Source of the DNA: Epinephelus fuscoguttatus
Taxonomy: Eukaryota; Chordata; Actinopteri; Perciformes; Serranidae
Direction of reading: 5' to 3'
NCBI RefSeq assembly: GCF_011397635.1
Contig: NC_064761.1
Coordinates: forward strand, 25,337,643-25,401,642
Length of the DNA stretch: 64,000 bases
Part shown: piece after piece, positions 1 through 52,223 of the stretch
Layout of the letters: every line of letters begins with the position of its first letter
Numbering within the stretch: position 1 is the first letter of the stretch
Notes under the pieces: generated by a model
Told to the model about the DNA's origin: nothing
What the model saw: the letters and a program-made list of their open reading frames with translations, nothing else
Databases searched by the model: none
Position numbers and translations under genes: made by a program

Positions 1-358
1 ATTTTGACACCTTGATTATCTCATTGAGCTTTAGACCTGTACACGTGGCTAAAACTACTGCAGAACTTATAAGGAGATATCACTAGTTAGTGGTTTAAAG
101 CTTAGCTCATGGCTTTTCTGTATATATTTATTTAGCTGGTTCACCAAAGTGCTTAGCCTTGTGAAAATATCCAACCTCAATTTGTTATACAGATGTATTT
201 TTCATGGTTTGCACCATTTCAAGTAACTGTTACTGTCTTGAACACTCCCTCCTAGTGCAAGATGCAGTGATTGTTACTGTAAACATTTGCACAACTGCAC
301 AGGAACATACACACTTCATTGTTTACACAGTATTGTGTATGTGGAGAGGATGTCTTAC

Positions 359-397
359 CTGTGACAGAGTGGAGTCACTGCAGGCTTTCCTGGCATC
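359..397 (-). CDS. gnb4: gnb4 coding exon 2 (partial gene)
   Basis: This is a 39-nt exon encoding DARKACSDSTLSQ, the second part of the N-terminal helix of a G-protein beta subunit. On the minus strand it is preceded by a CAG acceptor (398-400) and followed by a GTAAGA donor (353-358). It joins in phase 0 to the exon at 1906-1962. The peptide aligns with the DARKAC segment found in GNB1 to GNB4. The WD40 propeller exons must lie to the left of the window; none is visible in 1-358. This helix forms a coiled coil with G-gamma. Confidence 0.9.
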
Positions 398-644
398 CTG
401 CAACACAACAAACACCTTTATAACCATGTAGACCAGCGGAAAAACTTCAGCTCAACTCTGTTACTGCAGAGCTAAATGCAACACCTGATTACTGTGCTGA
501 CACACACACAGACATACACACACAAATAATGAAACAAAAAGACAAACTTAGATAAATTAATGGCAAAAACGACTTCTAAATAATAAGGGTGGGAATCACC
601 AGAGGTCTCCCGATATACCATCACACTACTGCTGCAATTTTAAA

Positions 645-1235
645 CGTTTTAAATTAGGGGCATCAAAATAACGCATTAACTTCCATTAATTGATCACAGA
701 AAAAAAAAAGCATTATTGAGGGCTTTGTCACATGATGGAGGCAGATGAGAAGACACTGCTCGGCCCTGTGAATGGAACATTAACATTTAAAAAATGCCCG
801 GATGGAAGTGTTTGTAGGAGCTACGTTCTCTGCAGTTTCTGCAATGAGGAATTTTCATACCATCGGAGTACTGCAAGCCTGAAAGACTTCACCTCAACGC
901 AAAGGATTTAGTAGCGAACCCGGAGGTCCGAGCTAGCACAGCTTCGGATGCTACACTCATCCAGGCCACGAGATGCAAACTGAGTAAGTCTACCTGTAAC
1001 TGACTGACTAACTAACTCCCTTACAAAGTGGACCGCAGACCAGTTTGTGTGGTAGAGTACAGGGGGACAAGTGTCCAAAATCTAGCAGCTTTACTGCGAC
1101 ACGTGTCAAAATTTAATTTGAATTGAAATTTTTTAAATACTTTCACAGCAAAAATTGATGTGATTAATTAATCACAGAGCATGTAATTAATTCGATTTAA
1201 TTTTTTTTAAATCACTTGACAGCTCTATTTTAAAG
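645..1235 (+). mobile_element. Decayed hAT-type element with BED zinc-finger remnant
   Basis: The left end reads AGGGGCATCAAAATAACGC and the right end, read inverted, AGAGCTGTCAAGTGATTT. These resemble the GGGCTGTCAAAATAACGCG termini common in teleost hAT-like elements. Inside, from about 796, a plus-strand frame encodes a BED-finger-like piece (CPDGSVCRSYVLCSFCNEEF, then YHRSTASLK) before a frame shift. BED fingers occur in hAT transposases. The element lies in the gnb4 intron between coding exons 1 and 2. It has no intact transposase. Confidence 0.6.
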
Positions 1236-1905
1236 GTTTTGCAATATGCTGAGAATTGTGATGGCATACATTGCAATCTACTGTGATTTATTACCTTTTT
1301 TCCCCAACTGAAAATTAAGGAAAAACTGTCAACATCTGTTTTTATCTAATAAGATATAATTTTTGGTCCATTCATCTAACCTTAATAATTTTTATTGCAG
1401 CAAAATGTATCGAGTGAACTGAAAATGCAAGTGATTTTATTATTCTAACAGGCTACCAAATGTTTAACTTGTATTCGCAATATTAATAATCTATTAATTT
1501 ATATAATATGAAAATTGATACTTTGCATCTGTGTATTGATACCATAGTGCCGCACAAAATATCATGCTACTATGCTGTATCAATATTTCCCCCCACTCTC
1601 ACTAAATAAGTGTCTAAACATGTGCCATAAGTTTTTTCTAATCACAGAAATTGAATCTCTCAGTGATCTCAGAACAGTCACACAACAGCAACTGACATTT
1701 CTATATTAGTTCCCACAATACAATTCCTGCACGAGAATGGAGGTGGCTGATTGAAAAGTTATGTCGAGTGCGTCACTGTCTCATCTGAAACAGTGTGACT
1801 CACAGCTTGCAGTGAACAGACAGTGGCACATGTAACGTACAAACACAACAACACACACACACAAGTCAATATAAACAAACATGTGCACACAAAATGCTGC
1901 CGTAC

Positions 1906-1962
1906 CCGGATCTGATTGCGTAGTTGCTCGGCTTCCTGCCGCAACTGTTCCAGCTCGCTCAT
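1906..1962 (-). CDS. gnb4: gnb4 first coding exon, G-protein beta subunit
   Basis: The exon encodes the 19 residues MSELEQLRQEAEQLRNQIR, the N-terminus of vertebrate G-beta 1/2/4 subunits. Glu at position 5 and Arg at position 15 fit human GNB4 better than GNB1, which has Asp and Lys there. The exon ends at a GTACGG donor (1900-1905). An AG lies 7 nt before the ATG, but its pyrimidine tract is weak. The gnb4 assignment also uses synteny, since GNB4 lies beside ACTL6A in human in the opposite orientation. The product is a membrane-associated G-beta that works as a beta-gamma dimer in GPCR signalling. Only the N-terminus is in the window. Among paralogues, gnb1 is the main alternative. Confidence 0.88.
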
Positions 1963-16743: not shown

Positions 16744-17841
16744 GCACAACTCCTATTGACAATCCGTTTTGGAATTGCGGTGAACAAAGTAGTCATTGTG
16801 ACATAATATCACAAACATCCAGTGAATAATGTCAGGAATAAACAGCTTCACAAGGCTGCACACAGTGGGTGTAAACTCCATACAATTAAATACAGTTAAC
16901 ATGTCCTTAACATTTGCTGATATCACCATGTTTTTGTTCTTTTGCTAAGATTTCCATAATTTTTATGATATGTCTACTAACTTTTGTCTATTCCTTTATT
17001 CCACTGAACTCCGTGGCATATTTTTTATTGCTGTTTATTAACTCGTTACTCATTTATTTATGTCTACATGTTGATGTATGTCGTGCTATCGTGTGTGTGC
17101 AAGGCAAACTGTTCAAACAAATTGCCCCTGGTGGGTTTAATAAAGTTGTCTAAATCTGGTCTGCTGTAGTGTAGTTTTATATGTCTATTTTGTCTTTAAA
17201 CTTTAAAATCAATTACCAAATAATACATATTACATAACATCAATATTAGGGTTGAGGTTGTTTACCTGCAAATGTGACCTAACTGGTTGCAATCTCTAAA
17301 GCATATCTGCCTTAAAGATTCAAGCAGTGATGGAAGATTTCAAGTGTCATTTTTTGTATCAGAAAGGTATGTGCCGTATCTCTCTCCAACATTCATTTAA
17401 ACACATTTCATTTTCATCTATCAAGAACTCCACTGCATCTTACATTTTTGCTGTGGCTTTTACTGATACTTGAGTGATGCATGTGAAAACCTAGGATCAT
17501 TTAAGTAAAAATTAGTTTTAGGGAGTAGTGCTGCTTTTTCTAATCCTCTTTACAAACGCTGACAAAAAAACAGACCTGCCAACTCCACATGTGAACATGA
17601 AATCTTTTATTTATTGTTTTATTGTCATGAAAGCACAGTGCTTGAGATGCAAAGTACAGTATATTAATGCTGTCAGAGAGATGCAAACAGGCAGTGTTTT
17701 AAAAAGCTACCTTCTTTTAACCTTTACATGCTGTTAAGAAGATTTTAAGCAGTCTTGTTTGAATTGTCATTTGCGCTATGATGATTTAATCTAGACATGA
17801 ATAATGTCCACTCCAGTTTTTTCTTTCAAAATAAGCTAAGA

Positions 17842-17847
17842 TTTATT
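17842..17847 (-). other. Candidate polyadenylation signal of aldh7a1
   Basis: AATAAA on the minus strand, about 355 bp downstream of the aldh7a1 stop codon. Other AT-rich candidates lie further left, near 17600. Confidence 0.4.
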
Positions 17848-18202: not shown

Positions 18203-19831
18203 TCACTCAAACTTGATTCCCTGGGCCAGAGGAAGATCTTTGCTGTAGTTTATCGTGCAGGTTGAACGCCTCATGTACTGCTTCCATGAGTCGCTGCCAG
18301 ACTCTCTTCCACCTCCTGTGTGTTTCTCTCCACCAAAGGCTCCTCCGATCTCAGCTCCGCTTGTAGGAATGTTGACATTCACAATGCCGCAGTCGGATCC
18401 TTTGGGCCCAAGCCAGCGGAAAACCCGACCCATATCTTTAGTGAAGATGCTGCTGGACAAGCCCTGCTGGACCTCGTTGTTCCAGGCAAACGCCTCCTCT
18501 TCTGACTTGAACTTGAGCACGTACAGTATGGGGACAAAGGTCTCGGTGTGTACAATGGACGCGTCATGAGCCAGCCCTGTGATGATGGTGGGCTCCACGT
18601 AGTTTCCAGGACGGTCCATCACCTTTCCTCCGCAGACCACAGTGCCACCCTGCTTCTTGGCCTGCTCAATGGCTGCCAGATACTGATCCACGGCTTGTTT
18701 GGTGTGCAGAGGCCCATAAAGGGTGGTGGGATCCCAGGGGTCTCCGATGCGGACTTGTTTGTAGGCCTTGGCGACCCTCTCAACCACTGTGTCATGAACA
18801 CTGTCATGCAGCATGAGCCTCCTGGTTGTAGTGCAGCGTTGGCCAGCGGTTCCCACAGATGCAAAGACAGCTGAGGGCACCACAAGATTCAAGTCAGCAT
18901 CCTCAAACACGATGATAGCGTTGTTTCCACCGAGCTCCAGCAGCTTACGACCGAATCTTTCCTGCACCATCATAGCCACCATCTTGCCAACATGGGTGCT
19001 GCCGGTGAATGACAGCAGATCCACCCGCTCATCCTTCGCCATGGCTGTGCCGATATCAGCGCCACCACAGGTCATGGAGCAGATAGCACCAGGCAGGTTG
19101 TTATGCTCCAGCACCTCGGCAACGATCCTGGTAACTGCAACACTTGTGAGAGGTGTGGTTGGAGCTCCTTTCCAGAGGCAGACGTTGCCGCAGGTCAGAG
19201 CGATGGCATTGTTCCAGCCGTAGACAGCCACAGGGAAGTTAAAGGCAGTGATGATGCCGACAAGTCCAACTGGGTTCCACTGTTCGATCAGGGCATGGCC
19301 TGGTCTCTCTGAAGGCAGCATGGGCCCGCCAATCATTCTAGACAGACCAACTGCGTAATCACAGACATCAACGTACTCCTGAACCTCTCCCACTCCCTCA
19401 ACATAGATCTTGCCCATTTCTAAAGACACCAGGCTCCCAAGAACGTTAATCTTCTTTCTAAGTGCATCTCCAATCTGCCTCACAATCTCCCCTCTTTTGG
19501 GTGCAGGAATATCTGCCCACATCTTCCAAGCCTCCCTAGCCTTCTGGACAGTTTCTTCATACTCCGCCATGGTTGCCTGGGTTACCCTGGCAATTGGCTC
19601 ATTGTTGGCGGGGCAGTATGATGTGACGACCTCCCCGCTCCCTCCCCAGCTCCCGTTGTAAACACCTGGGTTGTCCTCAGACAGGCCCAGCTCTTTGAGC
19701 CAGGAGTATTTGGGTTGGTTGATAAGGAGACTTGACATGGCTGCTGATTGCTGGCAGTGGATGGGTGCAAATTTATTTCTCAAGAGGAGCCTGCTGTGCC
19801 GGGCAAAGGTCAGGGTGAGGCAACGCTGCAT
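18203..19831 (-). CDS. aldh7a1: Antiquitin: alpha-aminoadipic semialdehyde dehydrogenase, single coding exon
   Basis: An uninterrupted 542-codon frame aligns end to end with human ALDH7A1 (539 residues). The enzyme oxidises alpha-aminoadipic semialdehyde to alpha-aminoadipate in lysine catabolism, and also betaine aldehyde and lipid aldehydes, in mitochondria and cytosol. Catalytic residues are visible: Asn198 in AFNFP, Glu299 in LLELGG and nucleophile Cys333 in GQRCTTTRR. Residues 1-31 are rich in Arg, Leu and Ser, fitting a mitochondrial presequence. Met32 (MSSLLINQP) matches the start of the cytosolic form. I chose the ATG at 19829-19831; the frame stays open five codons further, but that stretch contains a splice acceptor (CCAG at 19837-19840). 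The human gene, as I recall, has about 18 exons, so the intronless frame suggests a retrocopy. It is intact, with no stops or frameshifts. Confidence 0.96.
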
Positions 19832-19836
19832 GGGTG

Positions 19837-21078
19837 CTGGAAGCAAACCAAGTTAAAAATTATTTTACAAGTTTAAGAAGGTTGGTAGAACATTTATAAA
19901 TGATTGCAGACGATCTCACAACAACATTCAGATTCATTTTACAATGATATAAAACCGAGAAAGGCAGCGTATTCTTAGATTTGAAAAGCCTGAATCAGAG
20001 AATGTTCCTTGATCAATACCTTGATTGCTTGATAATCAAAATGATATCTTGTGAATTTTGTGTCAACAAACAAATCAGTTACTTGTCTGTCAGCTCCAGT
20101 TCAGTCAACTGCTGTCTCCAAGATCAAGAGTTAACTTTTAATTTCGATATCAATGAATGACTTCAAAAAGTTGCACAAGCTGTGTTACAGTCCAACACAG
20201 CACACAGTGAACACGAGCCACAGGGAATGCGGAAAGTCAACAGGTGTTGGCCAGAGAATGCTTGTTTAAAAATAGGAGTGTTTTTAACAGCTTCTTCTCC
20301 TTGAATTAATAATAATAACAACTCATTGTTTCCCTCTAAAACTGTGAACTGTCTGTGGTTTTCTTAGTCATCTGTGATATTAAACTGAATCTTTTTGGGT
20401 TTTGTTGCACAAAGCAATCCATTTGAGGAGGTCACCTTGAACTCTATGCCTTATCCTCTGATATTTCATAGACTAACTGTAAAAATGCAGGATATTCTCA
20501 TACAAAACGTAACATCAAAAATATCTACAGCATAATGCCAATACAACAGAAGTCACAGGTATGTAATATGCATTAGGACCGTGACTATTTATAACTAAGA
20601 ATGTTGGAGTTGAATGAGTTTCTTTTTTTAAAAAAACTACCTGTTATATACTCTTACCTTTTCTCAGACCTAAACTATATGGTCAGCAATTTGTTCAACC
20701 TATGCGCTTGCGCAATTAAATCCAACTTTGGAAAACCACGAGGCTGTAGAGACTTCAACTTATTCATGATATATAAATAATACAGCGTACACCCACAGCA
20801 TCTCTCATGAAAACCAAAATAGTAATTTCACATTTGCATTGTTTAAATCCACAAATAGTACATGTCAGTTTGTTAGCGTTGCTACTTTTGCAACATGCAG
20901 TGACATGGTCGACGAGATCAGCGTCTTTCTTGTTGAGTCCAAACGACCGTGACTCAAGGTCCTGCAGTTAACAAAAAATCACCGTGCTGTTATAAAACCT
21001 GCTCTTATACTCTGTGCATGTCACTTTATACTGATTAAAAGTAAGTTTATACTACTTAACTATCAGTTTCTCACTCAC
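19837..21078 (-). other. aldh7a1: Inferred 5'UTR intron of aldh7a1
   Basis: On the minus strand the donor AAC|GTGAGT lies at 21073-21079 and the acceptor TTGCTTCCAG ends at 19837, five bases before the ATG. The resulting intron is 1,242 bp and contains no recognisable exon. An NRF1-like palindrome, TGCGCTTGCGCA, lies at 20703-20714. Transcript evidence would be needed to confirm it. Confidence 0.6.
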
Positions 21079-21330
21079 GTTGATATAAAGTGCGGTGGGC
21101 CACGTCCACTCCAGAGCATGGAAGTACTTGATGTTTCCGTCAGAGCTGAAACGGAAGTACTGCTACAGTGCTACGTTCTGATTGGACAGCGGCCGTGACG
21201 CAGTGTGGCGCCTGCTTTGTTAGATTGATCCATGCTAACAAATTCCCTTTGTTGTGATTAACCGTTTAGCGGTTCTCGTTCTGCTGTAATAACTTATATT
21301 GACAAAGTTGTCGTTGTGATAATCTAAAGG
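21079..21330. promoter_or_regulatory. Head-to-head promoter of aldh7a1 (-) and actl6a (+)
   Basis: Only about 250 bp separates the inferred aldh7a1 5'UTR donor from the actl6a ATG. The stretch is relatively CpG-rich. It contains an inverted CCAAT box (ATTGG at 21181-21185), an ETS-like GGAAGT (21154-21159) and GTGACGCA (about 21195-21202). No TATA box is evident. The simplest reading is a shared bidirectional promoter for two broadly used genes. Confidence 0.65.
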
Positions 21331-33858
<12,528 letters not shown>

Positions 33859-35001: not shown

Positions 35002-38000
35002 TCATGAGGCGGACGCTTTCATCTGAGGAAACTTCTCCTTGAGCTTGGCCTGAGCTTTCCTCTCTAAGTTGGCTTTCCTGGCCCTCTCTCGAAGGTGCTT
35101 CTCTATACGCAGCCTGCAGGACAGAAAAACATGAAAACAATGAGAAATCAACACTTTGTTTTTTGGAGGAAAACATTTTCATAGCATAACTTAAGGTTGA
35201 ACTCTTTCCACACTTTTTTTTTTACATTGACTAAAACATCCTCTGTGCCAACATGGTCAGTCTACAGACCACTGCAGGGGTTGGCACTGTCACCACACAG
35301 CAAGAGGGTCCTAGGTTTGGACCCGCCTGCTGGGTGGGGCCCTTCTGTGTGGAGTTTGCATGTTCTCCCTGTGTTAGTGTGGGTTATCTTAAGGTACTCC
35401 GGCTTCCTCCCACAGCCCAAAGACATGCAGGTTAACTGGTGACTCTAAATTGCCCGTAGGTGTGAATGTGAGCGTGAATGGTTGTCTGTCTCTATGTGTC
35501 AGCCCTGTGATAATCTGGCGACCTGTCCAGGGTGTACCTCCCCTCTCGCCCATTGTCACCTGGGATAGGCTCCCCCTGCAACCCTTAAAAGGATAAGAGG
35601 TTACAAAAAATTTTACCTTATGTGTGGTTCGACGAACTTCGGTGTGTAGAACTTCTTTCGCTTGTACCTTCTGTTCATGTACCAAGGAATTGCATATTCT
35701 TTGAATCGATACCTGAGGGAAAGACAACAAGCGTGCATGAGTGATGCCGTCTCTCACATTTAATTTTATAAAGCTTGGCCATTTAGATGTACTGCAATCA
35801 GATAACAGCTTTGCCTACACTTAGGAAATTCTGTTGATATCAAAACAGGGACACACACACAGAGAAACAACTCCGTAGTGCTGCTGTGTGTCTTCATGTA
35901 TACAGACAATGTGGCCTCACCAGTAGGTGTATCCAAATGTATTCTTCCTCCAGGTCCCTGGTCTGCCTTTCTCCTGTCCTGTCTGCAGCAGACGCAGTGC
36001 AGTCTCTCTCTCGTTCACCACTGTTTCCAGTCTTATCATTGACCGCTCAACCTAGAAGGAAAAAGACAGCAAGGATAATCTCAGCCAGGACTCTTACTTA
36101 GAAAAAAACATGCACCTGTGTGGCTCTGTTGAAGGCGAAGCCAAATGTCATCAGTCAGTTGTAATACACCATTAATATAGTAATAGTGGAGATATCAGTT
36201 AGGCATACTGACCTTCCTTAATCGTTCTGGACTCGGCATCATGACTTTTTGCCTTCGTGATTCCTGCTGAAGTGTGAGCAGCATGTTCTTCTCTTTAAGC
36301 AGCACATACCTGAGATAGAACAAGAGCGTTACACACAGCTGATAAATGATGATACACTGTGGAGCACCAGTGTGTCTCACCAGTGCTTACCAGAGTTTGT
36401 GTAAATCTTCATTGCTCTTTGTTCTCAGCTGTTTGGCAGTCCATGGTCCACCTACAAAATGACAACAAAACAAAAAGTGTGAAATGTTGTCGTCACGCCT
36501 GGTGGGTAAATCTGTGCTACAATAGTGCCACAGCAACCTAAGGTGTCTAAATGGCGGTAACTGCTGTTGTTTCTTGCAACCAGTGTTTTACCTGACTTGA
36601 CGCTGGACTCTCCTCGGTTCTCAGGGAGGTCAAAGAACTCTTCCAGCCCTCTTCTGCTGATGGTAGTGTGCAGGGCTCGACACTGACCCACAGAGCTGGT
36701 GGGACTGTACCAAGACAGGGCAGCAAGTGCGGACTTTTCCCTGGTAGGGCAAAAAAAAAAAAACACCTCACATAAGAAAACGTATAAGGGATAGTCCATC
36801 CTAAAACAAGTACTCTTATAATGCCTCCTGCTTTCCTTCCTTAACTACCTTTCCTTTCCTGACAGATAACAACCATGAAATCATCACTGCGAATCCAATA
36901 ATAAAATTCTGTAACAAATAAAAATAGAAAATAAAAAAGGGTACTTGGCAGGCATATTTTTAAAGCTTTAGGAGAACGTTTATAGAACCTTGTAGGAAGA
37001 TCTACACTGGAAAAAAATTGGAGCTGGTGCTGCCATTTTACCAGCCATTTATGTACAGTGGGAAATAAATAAAGCAGCTTTGAAGCCTCCTTTTTCAAAA
37101 TGAAAATGAATCAGAATAAAACAAGCGGGTTCCTGGTTCGAACCCAGGGTTGGGGGAGACCTTCTGTATGGAGTTTGCATGTTCTCCCCATGTCAGCGTG
37201 GGTTTCTCTGGGTACTCCGGCTTCCTCCCACAATCATAACATGCACATATGACTCTAAATTGCCCGTAGGTGTGAATGTGAGCATGAATGGTTGTCTGTC
37301 TCTATGTGTCTGCCCTGTGATAGTCTGGTGACCTGTCCAGGGTGTACCCTACAATATGAACATGATGTAAATATGCAACATTTTTACATCATGTCAATGT
37401 TGTGCAATATATTTTTCTCAAACTCATGTGCAATACTGCTTCTCGCTGTCATAACATATATAACATTGATTATCAGGAGCAGTATGCATTTTTCCACCGT
37501 TTTAGTTATTAACTTACAGTAACTCTCTCTATATATAGAGTATAAATATATGTATATATATTGACTGATATTTAAGACTAGCAGTAGTAGCTCAGTCCAT
37601 TTATGCCCTTGAGCAAGGCACCGAACCCCCCAACCGCTCGGGGCGCCTCACCAAGGGCAGCCCCCTCACTTTGATATCTCTCCACTTTATGCATGTATAG
37701 GTCCTGTTTGTGCATATGTGTGTCTTTCGGACCTGTGTGTAATTGACAAGCAAGAGTGAAAACACTGAATTTCCCCTCGGGGGGATTAATAAAGTAAATA
37801 AACTTAACTTAAACTTGGCTAGGTCCAGTGTGTGACCCTGAAACCCATTTGTTGTTCTGGTTGTTACTGTTTTTCCTTCGGGATGAATAAAGTTATATTG
37901 AATTGAATTAAGAACCCTGTATCTATATACACAGTTAATTACACCGGAGACTGTCATAGTCATAAACTATCACCCACACCATGACTCTTTAATCCAGTGT

Positions 38001-38351
38001 CAACAATTTCACTCAGCAGATGTCTGCAGGTAGCATCATAAATTTAAGCCTTGAAGATATCCACGTTTATTTATTAGCGCTGTTATACACTGTGTGTTCA
38101 TTAAGTAATGACTTATTTACACAAACCGTCCCTGACTAGCAGAGCCTGTTAGCTGTAACGCGTTTGACTTTATCGTCGCTTATTAATCATGTTTAAGACA
38201 ATGTAACAGCGTCTTACCTGTAGAGACAAGGCTGGTACTTGGTTACAGCAGCAGTACAGTGCTGAATATTTATCGCTGAGGATATCCTAAAGACATTTTG
38301 AAACTGCTTGCAAAGAGTCAAAACGCGTCCTGCGGACGAGGACGCCGCCAT
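35002..38351 (-). CDS. mrpl47: Mitochondrial large-subunit ribosomal protein uL29m
   Basis: Seven exons, in transcription order: 38351-38218, 36740-36592, 36451-36391, 36309-36213, 36051-35921, 35712-35617, 35113-35002. They total 780 nt, or 259 residues plus stop (human 250). All junctions are in phase with GT-AG sites. The N-terminus [17 protein letters not shown] is a likely mitochondrial presequence. [16 protein letters not shown] and the L29 core ([18 protein letters not shown], then LLKEKNMLL) match human MRPL47 closely. A basic, helical tail follows ([10 protein letters not shown], then [14 protein letters not shown]). The protein is a component of the mitoribosome large subunit in the matrix, near the exit tunnel. 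It is head-to-head with ndufb5. Intron 1 and intron 6 carry SINE-like repeats. Confidence 0.96.
35262..35600 (+). repeat. tRNA-headed SINE-like teleost repeat, copy 1
   Basis: A tRNA-like head (GCACTGTCACCACACAGCAAG, then a degraded B-box near 35310) precedes a conserved tail with CATGTTCTCCC, ACTCCGGCTTCCTCCCACAG, CTCTAAATTGCCCGTAGG and GACCTGTCCAGGGTGTACC. It lies in mrpl47 intron 6, antisense to the gene. Copies 2 and 3 are at 37125-37352 and 56338-56700. Confidence 0.75.
37125..37352 (+). repeat. tRNA-headed SINE-like repeat, copy 2
   Basis: It has an intact B-box-like GGTTCGAACCC at 37135-37145, then the same tail as copy 1, truncated after CCAGGGTGTACCC. Found in mrpl47 intron 1. Confidence 0.75.
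37588..37815 (+). repeat. Interspersed repeat B, plus orientation
   Basis: Contains CCGAACCCCCCAACCGCTCG and ends GGGGGATTAATAAAGTAAATAA. It is matched in reverse orientation at 41250-41593. Probably the 3' part of a non-LTR or SINE family. Lies in mrpl47 intron 1. A second 3'-end-like piece with ATTGAATTGAATT follows at about 37855-37910. Confidence 0.7.
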
Positions 38352-38617
38352 TTTTGCCGTAGTCCCTCCCACATTACCCGTCATGCATTTCGTCCACTAA
38401 ATATATGTTTTTTTTTATTGTTTAACTTTTCCGAGCTATTAATATCTATTTGCGTTTTAAGTTGTATATACCACACCTAGACGACAATACATTAAAAAAT
38501 AAATAAAAACAAAAGTAAAATAAACATACCTGCCCTTATTAAAGATGGCGGTTTCCGCTTCACTCTATCATCAACGAATCAGAGGTCGCGTTGTTGAGCG
38601 GCCGTCCCACAGTAGAG
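38352..38617. promoter_or_regulatory. Bidirectional promoter of mrpl47 (-) and ndufb5 (+)
   Basis: The two ATGs are separated by 266 bp. A YY1-type AAGATGGCGG lies at 38542-38551, and a second ATGGCGGC-type motif overlaps the mrpl47 start codon on the minus strand. YY1 sites near the start are common in nuclear genes for mitochondrial proteins. The middle is AT-rich (about 38398-38520). No TATA box was assigned. Confidence 0.75.
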
Positions 38618-41600
38618 ATGGTGGGCATGAGTGTTCTCAGGTCTGCTGCTGCCTTTGCAGCCAGACTGAGTCCTCTGAAATCTGGAAACAATGCGGCAAA
38701 TTTACTCTCTCGAACAATTCCACGGACAGATAAAGGTAAGAGACACTATGGCCGTTTAAAGAGTGAGAAGTTTGAGCCTGAAGGCGGCCGTCTCTTCTTA
38801 TGACCTTGCGCTGGGGCTCGTTAGCATGCTAATGTTAGCTAGCTGGTAACGTTTGTCCTGCTGTCAACAAAAGAGTACAAAGTGCGATAGTAACGTTACT
38901 TTAGTAGTGGCAGATAGCTGCTCACTCTTATTTGTTAGCTAACAACGTTATACGCTGCCTTTTAGCCGGTGTAAAGTTAGGAATTGTTTGTGTAGTGTTT
39001 GAACTACAATTTGTCACTCTTCCCCATGTTATCATGTGTCAGTGTGTGGCTCAGTTTTCTGTCGAAATGAATTATAACATTAACGTCACATCTAATTTTA
39101 CCAACTTCTGTAATAACCCATAGTGTAAAGACCAGGAAAATATGTTTTGTAGAAACTATAACACTATATAACCCGTTTGAATCAGTGGGATGCACATTAA
39201 ACATTTTACCACACGATATTGTAAATCCTAGTTAATATTATGATATATTGTTGTAAGGATAAAGCTGTGATATTGCCCAACATTAATTTATTGACAAGAA
39301 GACACATTTTGGGAATGATCATAAATAATCTGGATGTAAGGAGGCACTGTATTTTAAGTTTACTCAGATACTACAGCCCAATAAGTTCATTCATTCATTC
39401 ACAGATTTAGTCACAAAAACAGATATAAAAAAAATACAAGAACAGTCCATAAGAAATAATGGAGATGTGAAATGGGACACCCTGATGAACTATTGTAAAC
39501 TTGAGATTAGGGGCCTAGACATGAAGCAGTTTGGCAGATTGTATTTTTTATTTTATTTTTTTTAGATTATACTTATTAATTTGAGGATCATAACTATACA
39601 AAATAAACTATACAAAATAAAGGACATGGAAGATGTACATCTCTTCATGTACATCCTCTTTTCCAACTTATTTCCGTACTAACATACAGATACAGATGAA
39701 CAAAAGTCTAAGCAAAAAGGAGGAGAAGTGAAATTGGCATATTGAGCACATAAACCTACATAGAGATGTGTTTCAAGACCTCAGTCCTACTAGTCCATAC
39801 AGTCCACTCCCAAGAGCCCCACCAATTTTGATAGTAGTCCAGAAAAGGGTCCCAAATGTGAAAAACTTGAGTGGCTGGTCCTTCAGCCAGAAGCTTATAG
39901 CCTCTAAAGGTATAGGTTCCATAGTGGGATGGTATCTGAAATCCACTGAAGAAGAACACACCTCCTTGCACTAACAAGAAGCACCTTAAACAGCTTCATT
40001 GAAGAGGGGCTAAGGTTCAGGGGCACTGACTGTATCCCAAGAATGCAAAACGTAGGGCAGATTGTATTTTAAAATGTGTTTACTAGAAAGGTGTTTAGAT
40101 TTAAGAAAAGAAAGTGCATGTAATATACAGTGGCATTTATCACTGACAAAACTCCTAAGACTAACCAAAAACCTAGAGACTAAACTACCCTAATGCTAAC
40201 TACTAAATGGCCATTTATTCTAGACATTTAGACATTTATTCTATCAGTAAACATTGGGTTCACAGGTAAGATACCATAAATAGAGACGTATGGCAGGTGG
40301 AAATAAATACTTTGTAAATGGATATGAGGGTAACTGGTTTAGAGTTTTTCCCAACTGTTTAAGGGTGTTAAACTTTACCTTACTGTTTAAGGCTCTTTTT
40401 GAAAACAGGCACAGATAATGACATTTTTACATTTTACTCAGTCTCATTCCATACCTGCAGACCTCTGGAAACCACACTAAAGGTCATACATTTAAATTTA
40501 TGTGTTTTACCCTTTATAAGATGCTTTATTCTGGTCTCATATGTATGAGAGGGAAACTCAATTGGAAAGACGTCACTATGCTAATAAAGCACCCACCTTT
40601 AAATCTGAAATCCATGGTCACCACAGTATTCCCCCGCCTTGTCTTGCAGTGGCTGTTCGTTGGGGCCATGGGAAGAAAATGTTTGTCATCAAACCTACTG
40701 ACTTCTACGACAGGAGATTTCTGCGCTTATTGGTGAGTGCTGTAACACCATTTCCTGTGATCATGATGAATTAAGGGGTGGTCCCAGCTCAAATTTGGGG
40801 GCTGCAAATAGTCCATAATAAGATCAATGCCACAGCTGTATGTGGATTCAGAAGACACTTAAGTGGAGCCCTGCCCTACCCCTACCTGCTCACTTATTTA
40901 ATGTTTTAACAAGGATACTAAAAGCCTGAAATGTCATATTACTAAGTTAAGCCCCCTAAAGTCTTTAACGTTGCGCTCCTGAAGGTATTTGCATCACTGT
41001 TATTGAATCCACCTAGTAAATAACATGCCATTATCGGCCTTATTTGAGAGCCAATTTGTACGTGTTCAAGTCATATTCATATTTCACAGATGAAGATCCT
41101 CTGGTCAGTAGCGTTTGCATTTAGCTCAGAGGTAGCGTAAGTGTAGACACATGTAATAATAACATTACATAGAGCCAGTAGTGAGCCATGCAAGAGTCAA
41201 ACCCAAAGTGGAAAGAATTTCTGTTCCAAAAATTATTCTTGTGCTTGTAGTTTAAGTTTATTTACTTTATTAATCCCCTGCGGGGAAATTCAATATTTTC
41301 ACTCTTGCTTGTCAATTACACACAGGTCCGAAAGATACACACATGCACAAACAGGACCTATACATGCACAAAGTGGAGAGATGTCAGAGTGAGGGGGCTG
41401 CCCTTGGTGAGGCGCCCCGAGCGGTTGGGGGGTTCGGTGCCTTGCTTAAGGGCACCTCGACAGTGCCCAGGAGGTGAACTGGCACCTCTCCAGCCACCAG
41501 TCCACGCTCCATATTTTGGTCCGGACGGGGACTCGAACAGGCGACCCTCCAGTTCCCAACCCAAGTCCCTATGGACTGAGCTGCTGCCGCCCCATGATAT

Positions 41601-43846
41601 TTCTTTTCTATTATATAGAAGTGCAGCGCATAAAATGTCGACTATTTTCCATAAAAGTAATAATTACTCCTGACATGGAGGCTTGGTTAGAACTCCAGTC
41701 TTAATTGCCCCTTACGCAGAACAATAGTTTTCAGCATTTCATTTTGACTTCTCATTTTTTCCTCAGCAATACTACATCCTGCTGACTGGCATTCCTGTGG
41801 TGGTCATTGTCACATGTGTGAATGTCTTTGTCGGTAAGTTTTTATTTGGATCATCTGATAATATTTGTTAATTTAAAGATGTGATTTGACGAGTAAATCA
41901 AAAGAAGCTACATGTTTCTTTGAAGTGAACTTGAGTGTGATTGTGTTGTGTAGGTGAGGCAGAACTGGTTGAGACTCCTGAGGACTACGAACCTGAGCAC
42001 TGGGAGTACTACAAGGTGTGTAGCTACTCTAATATCTTATCTCATCAGAAGTTTTTGATCTGAACTCTGGTCACTGAGAGTGAGAGTGAGTTGAGAGTTA
42101 AAAAAGTCTTTTTCCTGCCATGATTTCAATGTGCACACAGCACCGGCCTCAGGCTAAGAACGGGTCAGTGACTGTTTATTTTGATTAAATATATTTGCCG
42201 TCATTACAAATACTTGTGTTTTGTGTGTCTCTGCAGCACCCCATCACCAGGTGGATTGCACGGACCTTCTATGATTCCCCAGTGAAGGACTACGAAAAGA
42301 TGATGGCTGCGATCCAAATAGAGAAAGAAAAGGCAGACATGAGGTGAGTTTTTTCCCCCGTCACATGTAAAGGACAGAAAGCAAAGGGGCATCAAGACAT
42401 TTTTGAATGTTCTGAAACAAAGGGGAAAAAAGGATCTTATTAAAGTTGGCAGCACAAGTTGTCAAAGTTACACATCAGGAGCCAACCATGCACTTGTTTT
42501 GCATTTTGTGCACTACATCTAGTAGTTTGTGATGGTTATTGTTTGTCAGGAGGTCTGCCAGCAATTTTACTCTGCACTAAACTAAAGGTGTTAAGGAGGA
42601 AGTTTTATCTGTGGTGGAAATTTTGCCACAAGAATGAGTCTTAAAACCTGGATATGAGTTCTCAGAGTTAATGTGTTTTGTGTTTTTTGGGTGGTTAGAT
42701 GTCTAAAATAAAGTCTGTGGTTAATACAAGCTGAAGAGACTTTCACAATTTTTTCTTTGTTCAACAACATAAAATACGTCAGTAAATACCCCACTCGTGA
42801 ACTTTAAAGCTTCTATGTGTTGTAGGCGGTCGCTAACAAGAGACTCAATCAGACTACAGAGCATCATCATGCCTATCCACGCTTAGCATGTCTCTGTTGT
42901 CTTGTTTTGGTACTGACGTTTGTTCATGCAATTGAGTGTAGTTCGTTTATAGCCTAACGTTAGCTTTTTACTTATTTGTATGATTCAAAAATGATAAAAG
43001 TGGCGTTCATTTGCTGAACAAAATGTCTAAGTATCAGAATGTTTGTTTGCCACAGAGCTTATTTTCTGCAATTATCCAAAATCCAAGTGAGAAATCCCAT
43101 TGGCTTTTTGACAAGGGAGCCAGTGCAATGCCATTCTCGGAACCTTCCCTGATTTTTTTGGCATTTCGGTTTGATTTGGGTGGAGGAGGCGAATTTCCGT
43201 TTCCGACTTCGGTTTAAATTTAAGTAAATATGCTGAACCATTGCGATGGATTCAGAGTTGGCGAACTACAAACAGCCTTCAACCGGAAACTAGGGCTCTT
43301 CCGCTCTTCTTCCGGACGCAGGATCTCCGGGGTTTGCCTACAGACTCTACATTCACTGAATGTAGAGTCTGTATATAGAGACTAGTGCAATGCTAACTTC
43401 CGCGTCGGCCAACAGAAAAACATCATCCCTGGGGCACTCTGTAGCCATTTGTTTAGTCATAAAACTGTGATTTTATTATTCCAGTGTTGAACAGTAATTC
43501 TGAATGTATCTTTCCAAACTGAAACGGATTGTTTGTTAGAGATTCAGTGTACAAGCAAAAAAGAAAGTTTCAGTCTTCAGAAAAGAGACTCGTCATCATT
43601 TTCCTCTTCTCCTCACTTTGTCAAAAGGGAGTGAAAAGTGTTGTGGCACTATCCTGGGATTCACATCTCACTCTTATCAACTCCTGAAGCATGATCTCAT
43701 GATTTCCCTGCCTGTTTGTAAACAGACTGATGCAGCTGGAGGTGCGTCGACAGATGAGGCAGAAGGGAGACGGCCCCTGGTTCCAAGTGGAGACCCTCAA
43801 CAAGGAACTAATTGACAACAGCCCCAAGTCATCACCTGACAATTAA
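38618..43846 (+). CDS. ndufb5: Complex I accessory subunit NDUFB5 (SGDH)
   Basis: Six exons: 38618-38735, 40650-40732, 41767-41833, 41954-42015, 42237-42343, 43726-43846. They total 558 nt, or 185 residues plus stop (human 189). The start [13 protein letters not shown] resembles a mitochondrial presequence and parallels human [22 protein letters not shown] and [10 protein letters not shown] are conserved. One membrane segment is visible at about residues 69-89 ([20 protein letters not shown]). The C-terminus has [22 protein letters not shown] and GDGPW. The protein is a single-pass accessory subunit of the membrane arm of NADH dehydrogenase. An upstream out-of-frame ATG at 38545 could be a uORF if transcription starts before it. 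AATAAA is at 43920-43925. Confidence 0.96.
39533..40070 (-). mobile_element. 5'-truncated L1-like insertion with 15-bp target-site duplication
   Basis: GGCAGATTGTATTTT occurs at 39533-39547 and again at 40056-40070. Between them, read on the minus strand, is a short frame with [19 protein letters not shown], resembling the end of L1-type ORF2 (WDPFL-x-Y). A 3'UTR follows, ending in an A-rich tail with AATAAAATAAAA next to the left repeat. This is the layout expected from target-primed reverse transcription. It sits in ndufb5 intron 1, antisense. Confidence 0.72.
41250..41593 (-). repeat. Interspersed repeat B, minus orientation
   Basis: Begins AGTTTAAGTTTATTTACTTT and contains CGCCCCGAGCGGTTGGGGG, the reverse complement of the copy at 37588-37815, and extends further. 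Lies in ndufb5 intron 2. Open frames across it are by-products of GC-rich repeat sequence. Confidence 0.7.
43341..43371. repeat. Perfect 15-bp hairpin palindrome
   Basis: CAGACTCTACATTCA, one base, then its exact reverse complement. Located in ndufb5 intron 5 inside what may be an unrecognised MITE (about 42800-43540). Confidence 0.85.
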
Positions 43847-44479
43847 TCCAGAAGTGTCCACCATCTGTGCATCATGCCGATGAAGCTCACTGTTTGTACA
43901 TTTTTTCCCTCCGTGCGTAAATAAAGTATATATGTACTCTAAGCTATTGTCTTTATTGCCACAAACACTTTGCACCTGTTTGTCAATGCATACTCAGTCA
44001 TGTACTCTACATAGAGATGCATGCATATGTGCATAGGTGCAGTCTATTTTTTGTTGTTTTTCATCCTGAATGTGATTTATCCATATGCTTGTTTTACGCC
44101 TGAGATATGGGCTGCATATTAATGGACATTTATGGCATTTACTTAGTGCTTTTATAAACCCATGCAAGACGTTTAGCTTTATTTAGGTGCCCTAGATACT
44201 TTACATCTGTTGCATTCATCATACCTATGTGACAGTGTGTCTGTACTGTAAAATAAACACAAGCAAATGTAAAGGTTTGACAAGATTACACATTTAGATG
44301 TAGGATTTCAATAGCCTGCTCCAGTATCAAGTATTTGCCTCATAATGAACAGTTCACACATGTTCACTCTCATCCAGAGGGAAGTTGGGTGGCCACATAT
44401 TGGTCTGTCAAGAAGCACACCCTGCGTGGGATACAATATTGGCCACCCACTGCTTGTTCTGTTTATTGTACACTCACCT

Positions 44480-44960
44480 TTTGCCAAAAACCCACCTCAT
44501 CAAATCAATATCAAATCATTTCAAGTTTACTCATATAGCACATTTAGAAATAACTGCAGTTGACCAAAATGCAGTACAAAATAAAAGAATGACACACGAA
44601 TATATAGCAATAAAAAATGTACACAATTATAAAACAAGAACACTAGTAAAAATTACATACGTGAAAAAAGATTATAAAATAGTAAAAAAACAACAACACA
44701 CTACAAACGACCAAAGGCTGTTGAACGCATGTATGTTTTAAGATTTGTCTTAAGTGTCAATGGAGGGAGAGTGGAAGGCTATTCCAGAGCTTTGGAGCAT
44801 CTACGGCAAAGGCACAACCTCCCTTACCCACCAGCTTCGATTGCAGGACAGTTAAAAGACAGTATTCGGAGGATCTAAGAGGTCGGGAGTTGGAGCAGGG
44901 GCAGAGAAGTTTAGTAATATACTGACGTGCCAGCTCATGTATGGCTTTAAAAACAAAAGA
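44480..44960. repeat. Old interspersed repeat (LINE/SINE-derived)
   Basis: Phrases such as GGAAGGCTATTCCAGAGCTT and GGCAAAGGCACAACCTCCC, and GTATGGCTTTAAAAACAAAA, match a type of dispersed teleost repeat I recall. Family and boundaries are uncertain. Confidence 0.45.
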
Positions 44961-45599
44961 CCCAGTACTTTTGAGTCACCCCTCATATGTCCCCCCCAAT
45001 GTTGAAATGAAATGTACGCCCTTGGCTAATATGCTTTGCACTTCGTGAGAGTGTCCAGCAGGTGGCAGAGCTGTGCAGACAGGACGATTGTTGTCTGATG
45101 GACAAAGGACCTTTATTTATAAGATGCAGGATATTAACATTTTGTTGTGTCTCTTTTTAAGTGTGACTTCCACAATTTAGTTATTATAAATGCCAAATTT
45201 TACGAGAAATGAAGGATTTTTTAAAAACAGTTGATAATTTTATCAACTAAAGCTACTGCAGATTAATACAGATTGATGGAGTGTTTTGTTGGGGTTGTAT
45301 GATATATAAAGGAGCAGCAATTAAAATGAAAATGCACCTGATATGCATGCTTCTCCTCCATCCTGGAGAGGGAAACATGCTGTAGTAAGTGTGGGCGGCT
45401 TTATGAATCATCCTCAGAGGTGGGAGGGGCCCTTCTGGTAAAACATCCCCGTGCTGAAAGCGTCACCACAGTCAACACTAACAATGTAATATCTGCGCAG
45501 GTCAAATCTCTGTGCAAGGAGGGAAAAAATACAGCCAAAAGAACAACATTAGCCTCCTCCATGCTTTTAGCTCTGCCGCCAGTGTAGCAGCCAGCCAGC

Positions 45600-45758
45600 C
45601 TCCACCCCTCTGTCATTTTATTTTTATGTTTTTCAGCGTCACATCCCCCTGGCCGGAGGAATGTAGAGACGGAGTGCTTTAAAAATAGCATCCTCTCCTC
45701 TGACAGCGCTGCTCCGGTGGCTCCGCTGCACTGTGGTGCGAGAAGCAGGAATGCGAAG
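45600..45758 (+). promoter_or_regulatory. Probable usp13 promoter / 5'UTR
   Basis: GC content and CpG frequency rise just before the usp13 ATG. The start context GAAGATGGCTGC resembles the TISU/YY1-type SAASATGGCGGC element with one mismatch. No TATA box was found. Confidence 0.45.
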
Positions 45759-46005
45759 ATGGCTGCAGACCTCGGAGAGCTGCTGGTCCCATACATGCCC
45801 ACCATCAGAGTGCCCAGGACTGGAGACAGGGTTTTCAAGAGCGAGTGCGCTTTTTCCTTCGACTCTCCCGTAAGTGTCCACACGCACACACTGAGACAGG
45901 CAGGAGACGGTTGTTTGTGGAGACACAGGAGGTGATCAGTGTGCGTCGCAGGCGGACTGACAGTCTGACTTGGCCGGGCTAAACAACACACGTGAACCCG
46001 CTGTA

Positions 46006-46064
<59 letters not shown>

Positions 46065-49000
46065 TCCATGGCCACCTTCCCCTGTGAACCTGACAGAAAT
46101 AAATAATTAAATGTTGTTTACATCAGAGGAGAGAGGGATGGAGGGGTTTCCCTTTGTGCAGGAAGAGGTAGACGGTGCAGCTCAGGCCACATTACCGCTC
46201 CGACCACGCGCTAAAACACACACCTGCCCTCAGCTGTGAATTAATTTCAAAAGCTTCAGCAGCCCTGTCAGGGTGGAGCTGTGCTGTATGATACAGCAGT
46301 TCTGTGTGTTAGAGAGTTTACAGCCACCTTTATGGTGTTTTTAATTTATATTCTGCCTAAAATTTAACTTGAAACTGTCAGTAGTTTGTCAAGGACTGCA
46401 CCATATGATGAGATATGCAACAACATTGCTGAATATCGCAATAACGATATTAATCGCGATAAATAAGACACTAGAGTACTCAATTCTGCCTTTTTAAAGC
46501 CACATTTTTTGGTGTTTTTAATTTATATTCCGTCTAAAATTTGACTTGAAATTGTCAGTAGTTTGTCTAGGGTTGCATGATATGAGAAGAAACACAGTAC
46601 CGTTGCTAAATATCTTGATAATGATATTAAGTGCAATAAATAAGACATTAAAGTACTCAATTCTGCCTTTTAAAGCCAAATTTTTGGTGTTTTAAATTTA
46701 TATTCTGCCTAAAATATGACTTGACACTGTCAGTAGTTTGTCTAGGGCTGCACAATATGAGGAGATACTTGACAGTGTTGCTAAATATCACGATAACGAT
46801 ATTAATCGAAACAAATAAGACACTAGAGTACTCAATTCTGCCTTTTAAAGCCACATTTTTGGTGTTTTTAATTTATGGTCTGCCAAAAAATTTGACTTCA
46901 AACAGTCAGTAGTTTGTCAAGGACTGCACGATATGATGATATACGTGATAACGTTGCTGAATATCGCAATAACAATATCAACCGCATTAAATAAGAGATT
47001 AAAGTACTCAATTTTGCCTTTTAAAACCACATTTTTGGTGTTTTTTAATTTATATTCTGCCTAAAATTTGAATCAAAACTGTCAGTAGTTTGTCAAGGGC
47101 TGCAGGATATGATGAATATTGCGATAATGATATTTATCACGATAAATAAGGTACAATAATGTAGAGTACTCAGTTCTGTGTTTTTGCTGCTTTCAGCAGC
47201 CTATGCTGCTAAAATACAACAAATTCAAAGAAAAAAAAGAAAGGAAATTATTTCTAACATTTTTTATGTTATGGAATAAATTGAGCAATAAACACAAAAG
47301 GCACCAAAAAATAAACATATAAACGAGAAAAAAAACTCTCTTTAAAGTTACTCCCAACTTCATGCAATATTTGTCTTTCATGATGTGTTTTGCATGTTGC
47401 AATACAGAAAAAAAAAACATATTGTGCAGCCCTAATATTACGACAATATTTTCATCTTTATGCCTGTGTGGTCACTACAGTGAGTTTATAGTGTTGTTTA
47501 GCCGTAATAGTCTACAGCAATCAATTTATGCTGTGACTTTCTGTACAGATACTCAAATCTCAACATCATGCAATATTTTAGTCTTTCGCTATGCTAATTT
47601 TTTAAAAAATAAATACATATATATCATGCATCCCTAAATATTACTACAATATTTTCATCTTTATGCCTGTATGGTCACTACAGTGAATTTATAGTGATAT
47701 TTTTTAATCTTAATTGTGCTGTTTAGCCTTATGAGTCTACAGCAATCAATTCATGGTGTGATGTACAGTTAAATGTTTAAGACGCCTCTTGCTTCCAAAA
47801 TTGTGTCCAATTGTGAGTTTACAATGACTAAGCAAAAACTCATGCTATCCCTGGTAGTACTGTGATACTGGTAGATTGACTTAAAGTACGTTTGTAACAT
47901 GTTTTGATGTTACTGTGTCACTAGAGAGTTCATAGAAAATCTCATGACCCACATTGTGATGCACATTTATTTTGTATGTTTTCTGTTTCTTATGTGATTA
48001 AGGTATTAGTGATATTGCGTCAAAACATCATATATTTTGATTTTAACATTTTTTAAAAATGTGTGAATGTGAGAATGTACAGATTTGACACAGTTATAAA
48101 GACATGTGTCAGAAAGAAAGTCTGGGTTTTTGGCTCTCATCACTTTCTAGGCGACATACAACATAAAAACCTATTTTCTCGACTGAAACCGTTTTTAAAG
48201 GTGACTCAGCTGTCTGGAGTTCATCATGTTGGCCCGAGGACTGGTTTATTTTTGTCCTTGCACTGTTGAAGCTCATATGTCACTCTGGGCCACTTAAAGG
48301 TTTTCACAGGGGTTTATAAGGCCCACACTGATTGCAGATTTAGGTTAGTTTTAAACAGACTTATTCTTGATGGATTTTGTCTCTGACAGTTTACATGTGA
48401 AAGTGCGGTAAGGTTGTTTGCTTCTGTCTGAAAAACGAAAACCCCCGGAGGAGGTCCTACTGTATTTGTATTTTAAAACACTTTAAATGTGAGCCACTGG
48501 TCACATGTAGACAAAATGATCATACCTTTGTATCCTGTAACAAGTTTCAGATACAGTAAGTCAATCCAAGGTGTGAAACGCATGGGCCTCAGTCCACAGG
48601 CACGCATCAGCAGTTTTATGAGGAATAAGGTTACTGTGTTTTTAAACATGCAGGTATTCAGCGAGGCACTACTTTGTCAATGAAATGAATTTTAATGTCA
48701 CTGTATGTAACAGGATGCTTGTATTCTTTAGTCGAAACAACAGCAGCAGCAGCACAATTGATCTGTCAGATTGCTTGTATGAAACAAAATATCAGATATT
48801 AATCCAAATTTTTAGACATTCTTTGGCTAAAATAACATGTATAAGGTGTCTTTGACTCTGTGCGTTTACAGTAAGAAACAGGAATTTTCAGCAGCAGCCT
48901 TTTTCTCGATTAAAGTGAGATTTTTCTTTCTGTGCGAGAGTGCTGGAACAGATTTTTGGCTTGTTGACAAAGTGCGAGAAAAAGACTGTTTGAGCAAGAA

Positions 49001-52000
49001 AGCCCTTTTGAAAATGTGCTTGCAGAATCATTGGCACATCTCTCCTACTTGCATTTCCGCTGTGCATGTTGTGTTACATTTTTGTGTGAGGTAGTGAGGC
49101 CAAAGTACAGTGCGCCACAATTTAACTGATGCTAAATAGTTTTTGTCACGAAGTTCATCTGCTTTTACTGAACTGTTCTCGTCCACTTTAAATAAAGCTA
49201 AAATTGTGCCTTTCATCTGAGTGTTAGATCCCATCTCCTCTGAAATTAAAGATAGAGGACATAGATTCAGGAGGACCAAGAATATGGTTGGATAGGTTTC
49301 TTGTGTAAAGTGCACTTCTTGTTGTGTTGACGTGTTCATAGCCACTGTTTGTTTTGGTCTGCAGGAGTCAGAGGGAGGCCTGTATGTGTGTATGAACACA
49401 TTCCTGGGCTTCGGACGGGAACATGTGGAGAGACATTATCGCAAAACAGGACAGAGCGTTTACATGCACCTCAAACGACATGTCAAAGAGGTAAGTTTTA
49501 CTCCTGTGGTGTATTTATAGTGTGTTACTGATTTTTAGTCCTCAAATGTTAAGCTTAGTGTAGTTTATTAGCATAAAGGAAGTGCTAAAAACAAAAATAT
49601 ACAACAACAAACATAGCATTGATTGTGCAGATGAGAGGTAAAAAAAAACCCAAAAGGCTTACAGCGAAACCTCCCCTCTAAGATTTACACTTTATCCTGA
49701 TACCATGGATATTTGTTACCTTAACATAATGAAAAAGAGAACAAGTTAGGAGTAATATTAATAAAGATAATAAATAAAACAGAACCATTTTGAGCGCATT
49801 AACTATGGCAATGGCTCATCTTAAACATGTACTGACAGCAAACTTTGTTTCAGTGATGATGCAAATTTCTCCCAGCTACAGACAGATCTTGGTTGCGTAC
49901 AAATAATATTAAATTTGATCTATTTTAGTTTGTAATCATTTATTTAATTCATACTTCATTCAATATTCATACATACATAGATTGAGAGTCTCATAACGTG
50001 GAAAAGTAGCAAGGTGGATTTCAGACATTGGTTATAATTTACTTTAACCTACATTTATAAGCAGCATATACATTTTTATTATTATTATTATTTTTTTTAA
50101 TTTTGCCTTTATTGGACAGGACAGGTAGGCGTGAAAGGGAGAGAGGGAGAGGGAATGACATGCAGCAAAGGGCCACAGGCCAACTATAACTCTTCCTGTG
50201 TGCACCCATAAGAGGAAGCTGATGTATAAACAGATAAAAATAATAATGTAGATATAAACATTGAAAAAATATGTTTTCATAGAGGTTGTAATAGTTGACA
50301 AATCAATTCTAGTACATTAATAAACACACAACATGTCCTTAAAGATGCTTAGAACTACAGTATAGTGTGTTATGAACCATTAACTGCTTATAAATGTCTA
50401 ATAGGAGGCAGTCTCTATTGAAATAAGCACTATTTTACCACTATTTGTATTTCAGTAAGCTGATCATGTCATTAACGCCGTCAGGATTACAGGCTAAACT
50501 CACACCATGATAACTGATGCTGCAGAGGTTTGCAGCACTGAAAGCAGTGTGAGATTAAAAGGTATACCGAGTGACCCTGATCGCCGATATCATGATGCTG
50601 TTATTTGGAACATCAGTGGTTGAATTACATCGTCCGCCCTGCGTGTTCTTGAAGCTGAAATGCTCAGTCATCAACATTTAATTAAAGAAAGATGAAAATA
50701 TGAACTTTTTCACTGGACCTGACTGACCTTCAGACCGAGGCCTGTCTGAGTGTTTGTGGCGAACACTTGATATGTTTTCAGCTCTCTCTGTGTCCGTCTG
50801 TATCCCCCATATCACATCTTTAACCTCTGTCTGTTCTGTTTTCTGATAGTACTGTATGCTGTGGATTTTCCCAGAAAGAAAGTGGTAATTTGGTATTAAT
50901 TATGTGGAGAGATAGTACTCATTTGATGCGCTTCTATTTAATTGATTAACTATTAATTTCCAGTGAAACCTAGAGTCTTATAATAAACATGCAAAAATAT
51001 GAAATTTGTAGACAGGCAAGCGTACAATTCAATATATAGAGAGAATAAATATTCCAATAACAAATGACCTGGGTTTAAACTGACAATTCTCCCTGTAACT
51101 AGAACCACTTTACATCATGTTTTTCAAGAATCTTCCATAAAAAGTCCACAAACTTTTGGAAATTACACACCCATGACATAAAGTGTCACAGCCTTGTCAA
51201 AGTTACTTCTGAAATCCAAATAATAGCATCATACTGAATACACAACTGAAGGCTTTATATAACAGACGGATCATAATGCAATCCAAAACAACAACCCTGC
51301 AACAAATATTTTCATAGATTGTTAGATGTGTGAACCAGAGAGCCACTAGTTCAACTCTATGGTAACTTCTGAAGTTTGAAGTGGTGTTGCATTGGATTGC
51401 ATTATACTGTAAGGCGTTTTTATTATTTTGTCCATCCCTGTGTATTTTTAAAAACACTCTTGCTTTTCCTTTGTGGTAAAAAAAAAGTCACACATGAACT
51501 CAAACAAGCCTCTCTTTTCAAAAGTCGATGGTGAACAACAAAGGCCTGAGCTGCAGCCGTGTTTTCCTACTGGCTCTAATTGCCCTCAGATAAGCTCTGC
51601 TTTGTAAAGAGCTGCTATTTCCATGCCTGGATCTGGCCTGAAACAGCTGCTCACATTCTGCAGGCTCCTGTGTCTGCTGTTTTTTTTTCCCATGAGTCCA
51701 CTTGGTCGTGAGTGTGTCAGCATTCTCTGTCTTTCTCTCTGTCTGCCACACCGTGTCCTCCTTCTCCTCCCTGCTGAGTGAACGGGAAGCAGTCACCTGA
51801 ACTGAATGCCATCTAGACCAATATTAAATAAATAAATCTATAAATAAATAAATGTAAAAATGGATAAATATGCCAATAAAATAAGTCCAGAAATTAATAC
51901 ATCTGGCATTAAATATATAAATAAATGGAAATGTATACATAAAAAGTAGTCAGTGTAGTTTAATAATTAAATAAATAAAAATAAATAAATATTTTTAAAG

Positions 52001-52183: not shown

Positions 52184-52223
<40 letters not shown>

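Follow-up and report, generated by a model that had tools for sequence, protein, structure and literature searches.

An intact single-exon aldh7a1 between gnb4 and actl6a in Epinephelus fuscoguttatus is a probable orphan retrogene

The window analysed here is the whole stretch of 64,000 nucleotides at C10:25337643-25401642 of an Epinephelus fuscoguttatus assembly that comprises 1.047 Gb in 26 contigs. By tblastn, its gene order is gnb4 (-), aldh7a1 (-), actl6a (+), mrpl47 (-), ndufb5 (+) and usp13 (+), the neighbours of aldh7a1 having been located with human protein queries:

356..1962, minus strand: 5' coding pieces of gnb4 (2 pieces, the gene running off the window; tblastn, human queries)
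18203..19831, minus strand: aldh7a1 coding sequence (intact frame, Pfam Aldedh 450.6 bits, 96.7% identity to seabream antiquitin)
21331..33855, plus strand: actl6a, head-to-head with aldh7a1 (14 matched pieces; tblastn, human query)
35020..63070, both strands: mrpl47 (-), ndufb5 (+) and usp13 (+), the remainder of the conserved block (tblastn, human queries)

Human 3q26.33 has the same order and strands as this gnb4-usp13 block, aldh7a1 being the addition here. Since actl6a is matched in 14 pieces, the neighbours are split in the usual way, with 9 pieces for usp13 (which runs off the window), 5 for mrpl47 and 4 for ndufb5; these counts exclude two weak and out-of-place matches, of MRPL47 at 62143 (E 0.49) and of USP13 at 35279 (E 0.17). 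Around ndufb5, a near-identical peptide stretch (VNYTQVRK...) occurs in the frames 37601-37963 (-) and 41305-41673 (+), in opposite orientation, and by eye these are probably copies of an interspersed repeat.

The aldh7a1 frame is open and intact on the minus strand over 542 codons and a TGA (18205-18203), all in one exon, while the plus strand of 18203-19831 is interrupted by stops. It forms the longest stop-free stretch in the window, at 549 codons versus 238 for the runner-up, a more than two-fold difference. The product is a full-length aldehyde dehydrogenase, with the Pfam Aldedh match spanning residues 67-522, and it is closest to vertebrate antiquitin (ALDH7A1). Among proteins of solved structure, it is nearest to black-seabream antiquitin (2jg7), with 493/510 residues identical in the alignment, and to human ALDH7A1 (4x0t), with 435/511 (85.1%). 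The catalytic residues Asn198, Glu299 and Cys333 are all in place, and the substrate-binding residues Glu152 and Arg332 (Glu121 and Arg301 in the 511-residue numbering) are conserved too. An earlier note, made from the letters of this DNA, had described an intact 542-codon antiquitin frame in one exon, with these three active-site residues, contrasting with split neighbours and lying inside a conserved gnb4-actl6a block. All of this holds: the residues stand at the positions named, the contrast with the neighbours is real, and the tblastn order (human queries) bears out the location; the strand, absent from that note, is minus. The likely 5'UTR intron and the parallel case of phax, treated below, also go beyond that note.

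Seabream and human antiquitin are identical at 434/510 residues (85.1%), so that the window copy and the seabream protein are equally distant from the human one, with no sign of relaxed evolution. On these alignments, the evolution of the copy has been no faster than that of the seabream protein, and the intact residues and conserved protein suggest that the single-exon gene may have kept the parental function. A gene without introns that has bacterial relatives might also be explained by bacterial contamination or horizontal transfer, the NCBIfam model pip_6_carb_DH (L-piperidine-6-carboxylate dehydrogenase) giving 690.9 bits. This score is below the cut-off of 730, although the model is one for prokaryotic proteins and exceeding its cut-off is not a defining feature for animals. 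A bacterial origin is refuted by the identities to the fish and human proteins, the gene lies within a vertebrate gene block, and we give this explanation practically no credence.

We then come to the number of copies. A six-frame search of the genome with the aldh7a1 protein returned, at an E-value limit of 0.001, this gene and 6 further matches of 33-42% identity. When the limit was raised to 10 and all 31 first-look candidates were scored, there were 29 matches, one of them this gene, the other 28 being 24-42% identical and covering at most 141 residues each. Several of the distant ALDH-like matches cluster as separate pieces, and the 28, read as a group, seem to be other ALDH genes. A multi-exon antiquitin, if present, would be far more similar than 24-42%, and the same search recovers split genes: a lamin B1-like gene (C18:930255-1024778) was matched in 9 places at 43-79% identity. 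No second aldh7a1, multi-exon or other, was found in this search of the animal's own genome at E up to 10; with a sole aldh7a1 at both thresholds, a parent gene still in the assembly is rejected. The earlier note had proposed to look for a second, multi-exon copy and had left it undecided whether the gene replaces or supplements its parent. In this one assembly, of unstated completeness, there is one copy only and no parental gene is left, which supports the replacing half of that statement and not the supplementing half. With no other aldh7a1 recovered from the genome, this gene more probably replaced its parent than supplements it, and would then be an orphan retrogene, a known kind.

Where the parent should have stood can be judged from the human gene order. 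Passages of PMC4424952 place human ALDH7A1 between GRAMD3 and PHAX, with LMNB1 beyond. A human LMNB1 query gave at least 81 matches with the best 83 of 204 candidates scored, and the best candidate is a multi-exon gene at C18:930255-1024778. GRAMD3 is now named GRAMD2B, and its best candidate is C18:8284793-8286948, multi-exon too, where three pieces match at 60-69% (the query gave 13 matches altogether). With orthology of both genes assigned by best match only, aldh7a1 thus lies away from its ancestral neighbours, on C10 versus C18 for the likely gramd2b and lmnb1. A second gramd2b-like copy at C6:44042586-44043583 (-), with pieces of 72% and 66%, may be the duplicate left by the genome doubling of teleosts. 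The Pfam lamin-tail family missed the lamins and matched an unrelated gene. In a stretch of C20 near 16799468, a 301-codon open frame (positions 856-1761 of that stretch, -) scores 28.9 bits with the lamin-tail family, below its cut-off of 34.3, and by eye is not a lamin.

Around these two genes we looked for a relic of the parent. The 50 kb that flank the lmnb1 candidate on its 5' side (C18:880001-930000) yielded only matches of E 0.43 or worse for aldh7a1, phax and gramd2b, and none of the neighbours expected from the human order was matched. At C18:910788-910853, a stretch of 22 residues aligns with aldh7a1 codons 15-36 (E 0.74); 31/66 of its bases are identical, which is at chance level. 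The 10 kb over and beyond the gramd2b 3' end (C18:8287001-8297000) held nothing like aldh7a1 at E up to 5, and phax was matched there with E 0.52 at best. By blastn, the transcript-like stretch 17601-19836 gave nothing better than E 0.33 in both C18 stretches. A parental relic is thus rejected within these 60 kb, and the rest of the 7.3 Mb between gramd2b and lmnb1 was covered by the genome-wide aldh7a1 search. Many frames in C18:880001-930000 resemble transposable elements by eye (reverse transcriptase, transposase or integrase).

These results bear on the idea that the retrocopy supplements a multi-exon parent that is still present but missing from the assembly. Such a parent could hide behind the unstated completeness of the assembly, and the genome search scores first-look candidates only. 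However, the assembly holds 1.047 Gb in 26 contigs, and no second copy appeared at E up to 10 in a search that did find split genes at 43-79%. Moreover, the best gramd2b and lmnb1 candidates are present, yet no aldh7a1 better than E 0.74 lies in the 50 kb, and none at E up to 5 in the 10 kb at gramd2b. We regard a hidden parent as very unlikely.

How the gene came to its present place is suggested by its structure. Human ALDH7A1 has many introns, and here the coding sequence is in one exon, as in a retrogene. No A-run of 8 or more was found beside the aldh7a1 3' end. A search for target-site duplications gave 28 families, none convincing among the 20 of 28 that were listed; an A+T-rich pair, 17506-17518 and 19854-19866 (92% over 13 bases), is unconvincing among so many. 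With a poly-A tract and a convincing target-site duplication both absent, we infer retroposition from the missing introns and the new location; the absence of these marks is expected for an old insertion, yet is no proof of the route. The same absence leaves some room for a gene that moved as DNA with its introns, these being later lost in place through recombination with cDNA. This requires two events, relocation and the loss of every intron from a gene with as many as the human one has, versus a single retroposition, and we hold it to be improbable.

The other question is that of timing. It might be that the replacement is old, common to most or all teleosts and ordinary for the group, which would be compatible with an orphan retrogene; the conserved order of the surrounding genes, the lack of any parent remnant and the decayed marks of retroposition fit such an age. 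A passage of PMC5650160 on zebrafish aldh7a1, however, places a guide-RNA target in 'exon 4'. The target reads VPAPKR and window residues 108-113 read IPAPKR (V for I only), so that 'exon 4' holds codons near 108-113, which fits a split ancestor unless untranslated exons were counted. An ancestral intron-rich parent may be assumed on this one zebrafish passage and the human structure, 'exon 4' possibly including 5'UTR exons. If coding exons are meant, the replacement took place after the zebrafish lineage had branched off, and the passage suggests that aldh7a1 is not intronless in all ray-finned fish. The replacement could be clade-wide or recent, and we consider the older, teleost-wide timing unlikely. 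According to PMC8175701, zebrafish aldh7a1 mutants die at about 8-10 days, which makes it unlikely that the sole copy here is a dead gene.

A retrocopy has to acquire the means of its expression, and the surroundings of aldh7a1 offer several candidate elements:

20701..21900, no strand assigned: CpG-rich interval of four consecutive 300-base bins, candidate divergent promoter of actl6a and aldh7a1
19837..21078, minus strand: candidate 5'UTR intron, predicted, with donor AAC/GTGAGT at 21078, acceptor GCTTCCAG/CACCCATG and first exon base 19836
20652..20660, minus strand: alternative donor AAG/GTAAGA, with the intron beginning at 20657; it has the highest donor score of the interval
19739..19831, minus strand: codons 1-31, likely mitochondrial targeting presequence (5 basic and 0 acidic residues; putative role)
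19736..19738, minus strand: Met32, second in-frame start, likely cytosolic, aligned with the Met that opens human MSTLLINQP (putative dual use)
17606..17847, minus strand: candidate 3' end, with AATAAA at 17842-17847, 17618-17623 and 17606-17611 and ATTAAA at 17785-17790

The ratio of observed to expected CpG is 0.94-1.08 in the four bins of 20701-21900, versus 0.24 and 0.00 in the flanking bins. The CpG-rich bins cover actl6a exon 1 and extend to 630 bases upstream of the actl6a ATG. The gene thus has both a head-to-head partner and a CpG-rich interval, although G+C in this interval is only 0.39-0.43, which counts against the promoter reading. The candidate donors fall within or next to the CpG-rich interval, and at the predicted acceptor the exon starts 5 bases ahead of the aldh7a1 ATG. 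The splice scores are ordinary: when the sites in 17001-21800 are ranked by weighted scoring, the 21078 donor takes 5th place and the acceptor shares the 7th. On the aldh7a1 strand, 20 ATGs lie between 21078 and the start codon, so that an unspliced leader would be unfavourable; against the reading, a transcript starting above 21119 would carry an out-of-frame upstream ATG at that position. These features suggest a divergent promoter shared with actl6a and a 5'UTR intron for aldh7a1. Retrogenes with 5'UTR introns that recruit bidirectional CpG promoters have been reported (Fablet 2009, as cited in a passage of PMC5803294), a pattern that the CpG interval and the splice-like sites of aldh7a1 match. 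As to the two starts, the base at -3 is G for Met32 and C for Met1, and the arrangement suggests that the choice between a mitochondrial and a cytosolic start came along with the copied mRNA.

It is thus probable that aldh7a1 is here an orphan retrogene, that is a case of retrogene replacement. The retrocopy that stayed functional, as the earlier note had proposed, fits all the findings, with its intact residues, its status as sole copy and its new location. Reverse transcription of a full-length spliced aldh7a1 mRNA would have produced a copy that landed between gnb4 and actl6a, next to the promoter of actl6a and pointing away from that gene; the back side of this CpG-rich promoter probably drives aldh7a1. 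A non-coding first exon would be joined to the one coding exon by removal of an intron of some 1.2 kb, or by use of the other donor at 20657. Loss of the multi-exon parent would have followed, leaving the copy, presumably expressed, as the only source of alpha-aminoadipic semialdehyde dehydrogenase, an enzyme of lysine breakdown, made as a mitochondrial form (Met1) and perhaps also as a cytosolic form (Met32).

The closest known case is amphioxus SYCP1. AmphiSYCP1, like aldh7a1, has a single coding exon and a multi-exon parent that is lost or not found, and it stands head-to-head with the unrelated CHIC as aldh7a1 does with actl6a. There the gene co-opted a bidirectional promoter and gained new 5'UTR exons, which were shown by experiment together with expression, whereas those of aldh7a1 are predicted; no CpG island was found at AmphiSYCP1 (PMC5803294), whereas a CpG interval is present at aldh7a1. 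Unlike SYCP1, aldh7a1 encodes a metabolic enzyme. In ray-finned fish, the rod opsin (rhodopsin) of teleosts is a single-exon retrogene that assumed the role of an intron-containing gene; its intron-containing copy was kept in another role, whereas none was found for aldh7a1. With the antiquitins 2jg7 and 4x0t, the gene shares family, residues and length, but differs in gene structure and location. The 'orphan' retrogenes of the human genome were reportedly treated by Ciomborowska in 2013. A passage of PMC5408686 gives 25 such cases, e.g. CHMP1B, in which the retrocopy takes over after loss of the progenitor; this takeover is the feature shared with aldh7a1, while the genes and the lineage differ, and the orphan-retrogene text of that source holds nothing on fish aldh7a1. 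Among the papers found on aldh7a1 or antiquitin as an intronless or retroposed gene, no title pointed to such a finding, and passages of PMC10542311 deal with positive selection and are silent on gene structure.

An essential function can apparently be carried by a single-exon copy with a borrowed promoter, loss of the enzyme being lethal to zebrafish larvae (PMC8175701). Two large retrocopy surveys, as described in passages of PMC13320880 and PMC3091775, detect copies by pairing them with a multi-exon parent annotated in the genome under study; any copy that has outlived its parent would presumably escape them. In species with such a gene, fish models of pyridoxine-dependent epilepsy cannot reproduce coding-region splice variants.

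The human neighbour of ALDH7A1 offers a possible parallel. PHAX has introns in human. In the genome, the PHAX RNA-binding family is matched once (C22:30282201-30282446), inside a single open frame of 403 codons from its ATG, C22:30281943-30283229 (-). This frame carries human PHAX residues 6-394 in a single alignment with 52% identity; searched through the whole genome, it matched itself and otherwise gave two hits at chance level (E 0.91 and 8.4). A frame about 15 kb away is presumably dnajc2, and no aldh7a1- or lmnb1-like sequence was found at E up to 1 in 200 kb around phax. The two genes, adjacent in human, are thus both single-exon, single-copy and relocated here, and phax is a second candidate orphan retrogene of the same human block. 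One might speculate on a coupled replacement, in which aldh7a1 (C10) and phax (C22) were both replaced while gramd2b and lmnb1 stayed split on C18, 7.3 Mb apart; the aldh7a1-phax segment would have been lost, perhaps at the breakpoint separating gramd2b and lmnb1, a loss tolerated only through working retrocopies that already existed. We put this forward as a tentative scenario with somewhat less than an even chance. Retrogene replacement itself is already known; what was not expected is that aldh7a1 and phax share their state. If phax is indeed a second case of the same block, it would provide a dated natural experiment on the loss of a chromosome segment with essential genes.
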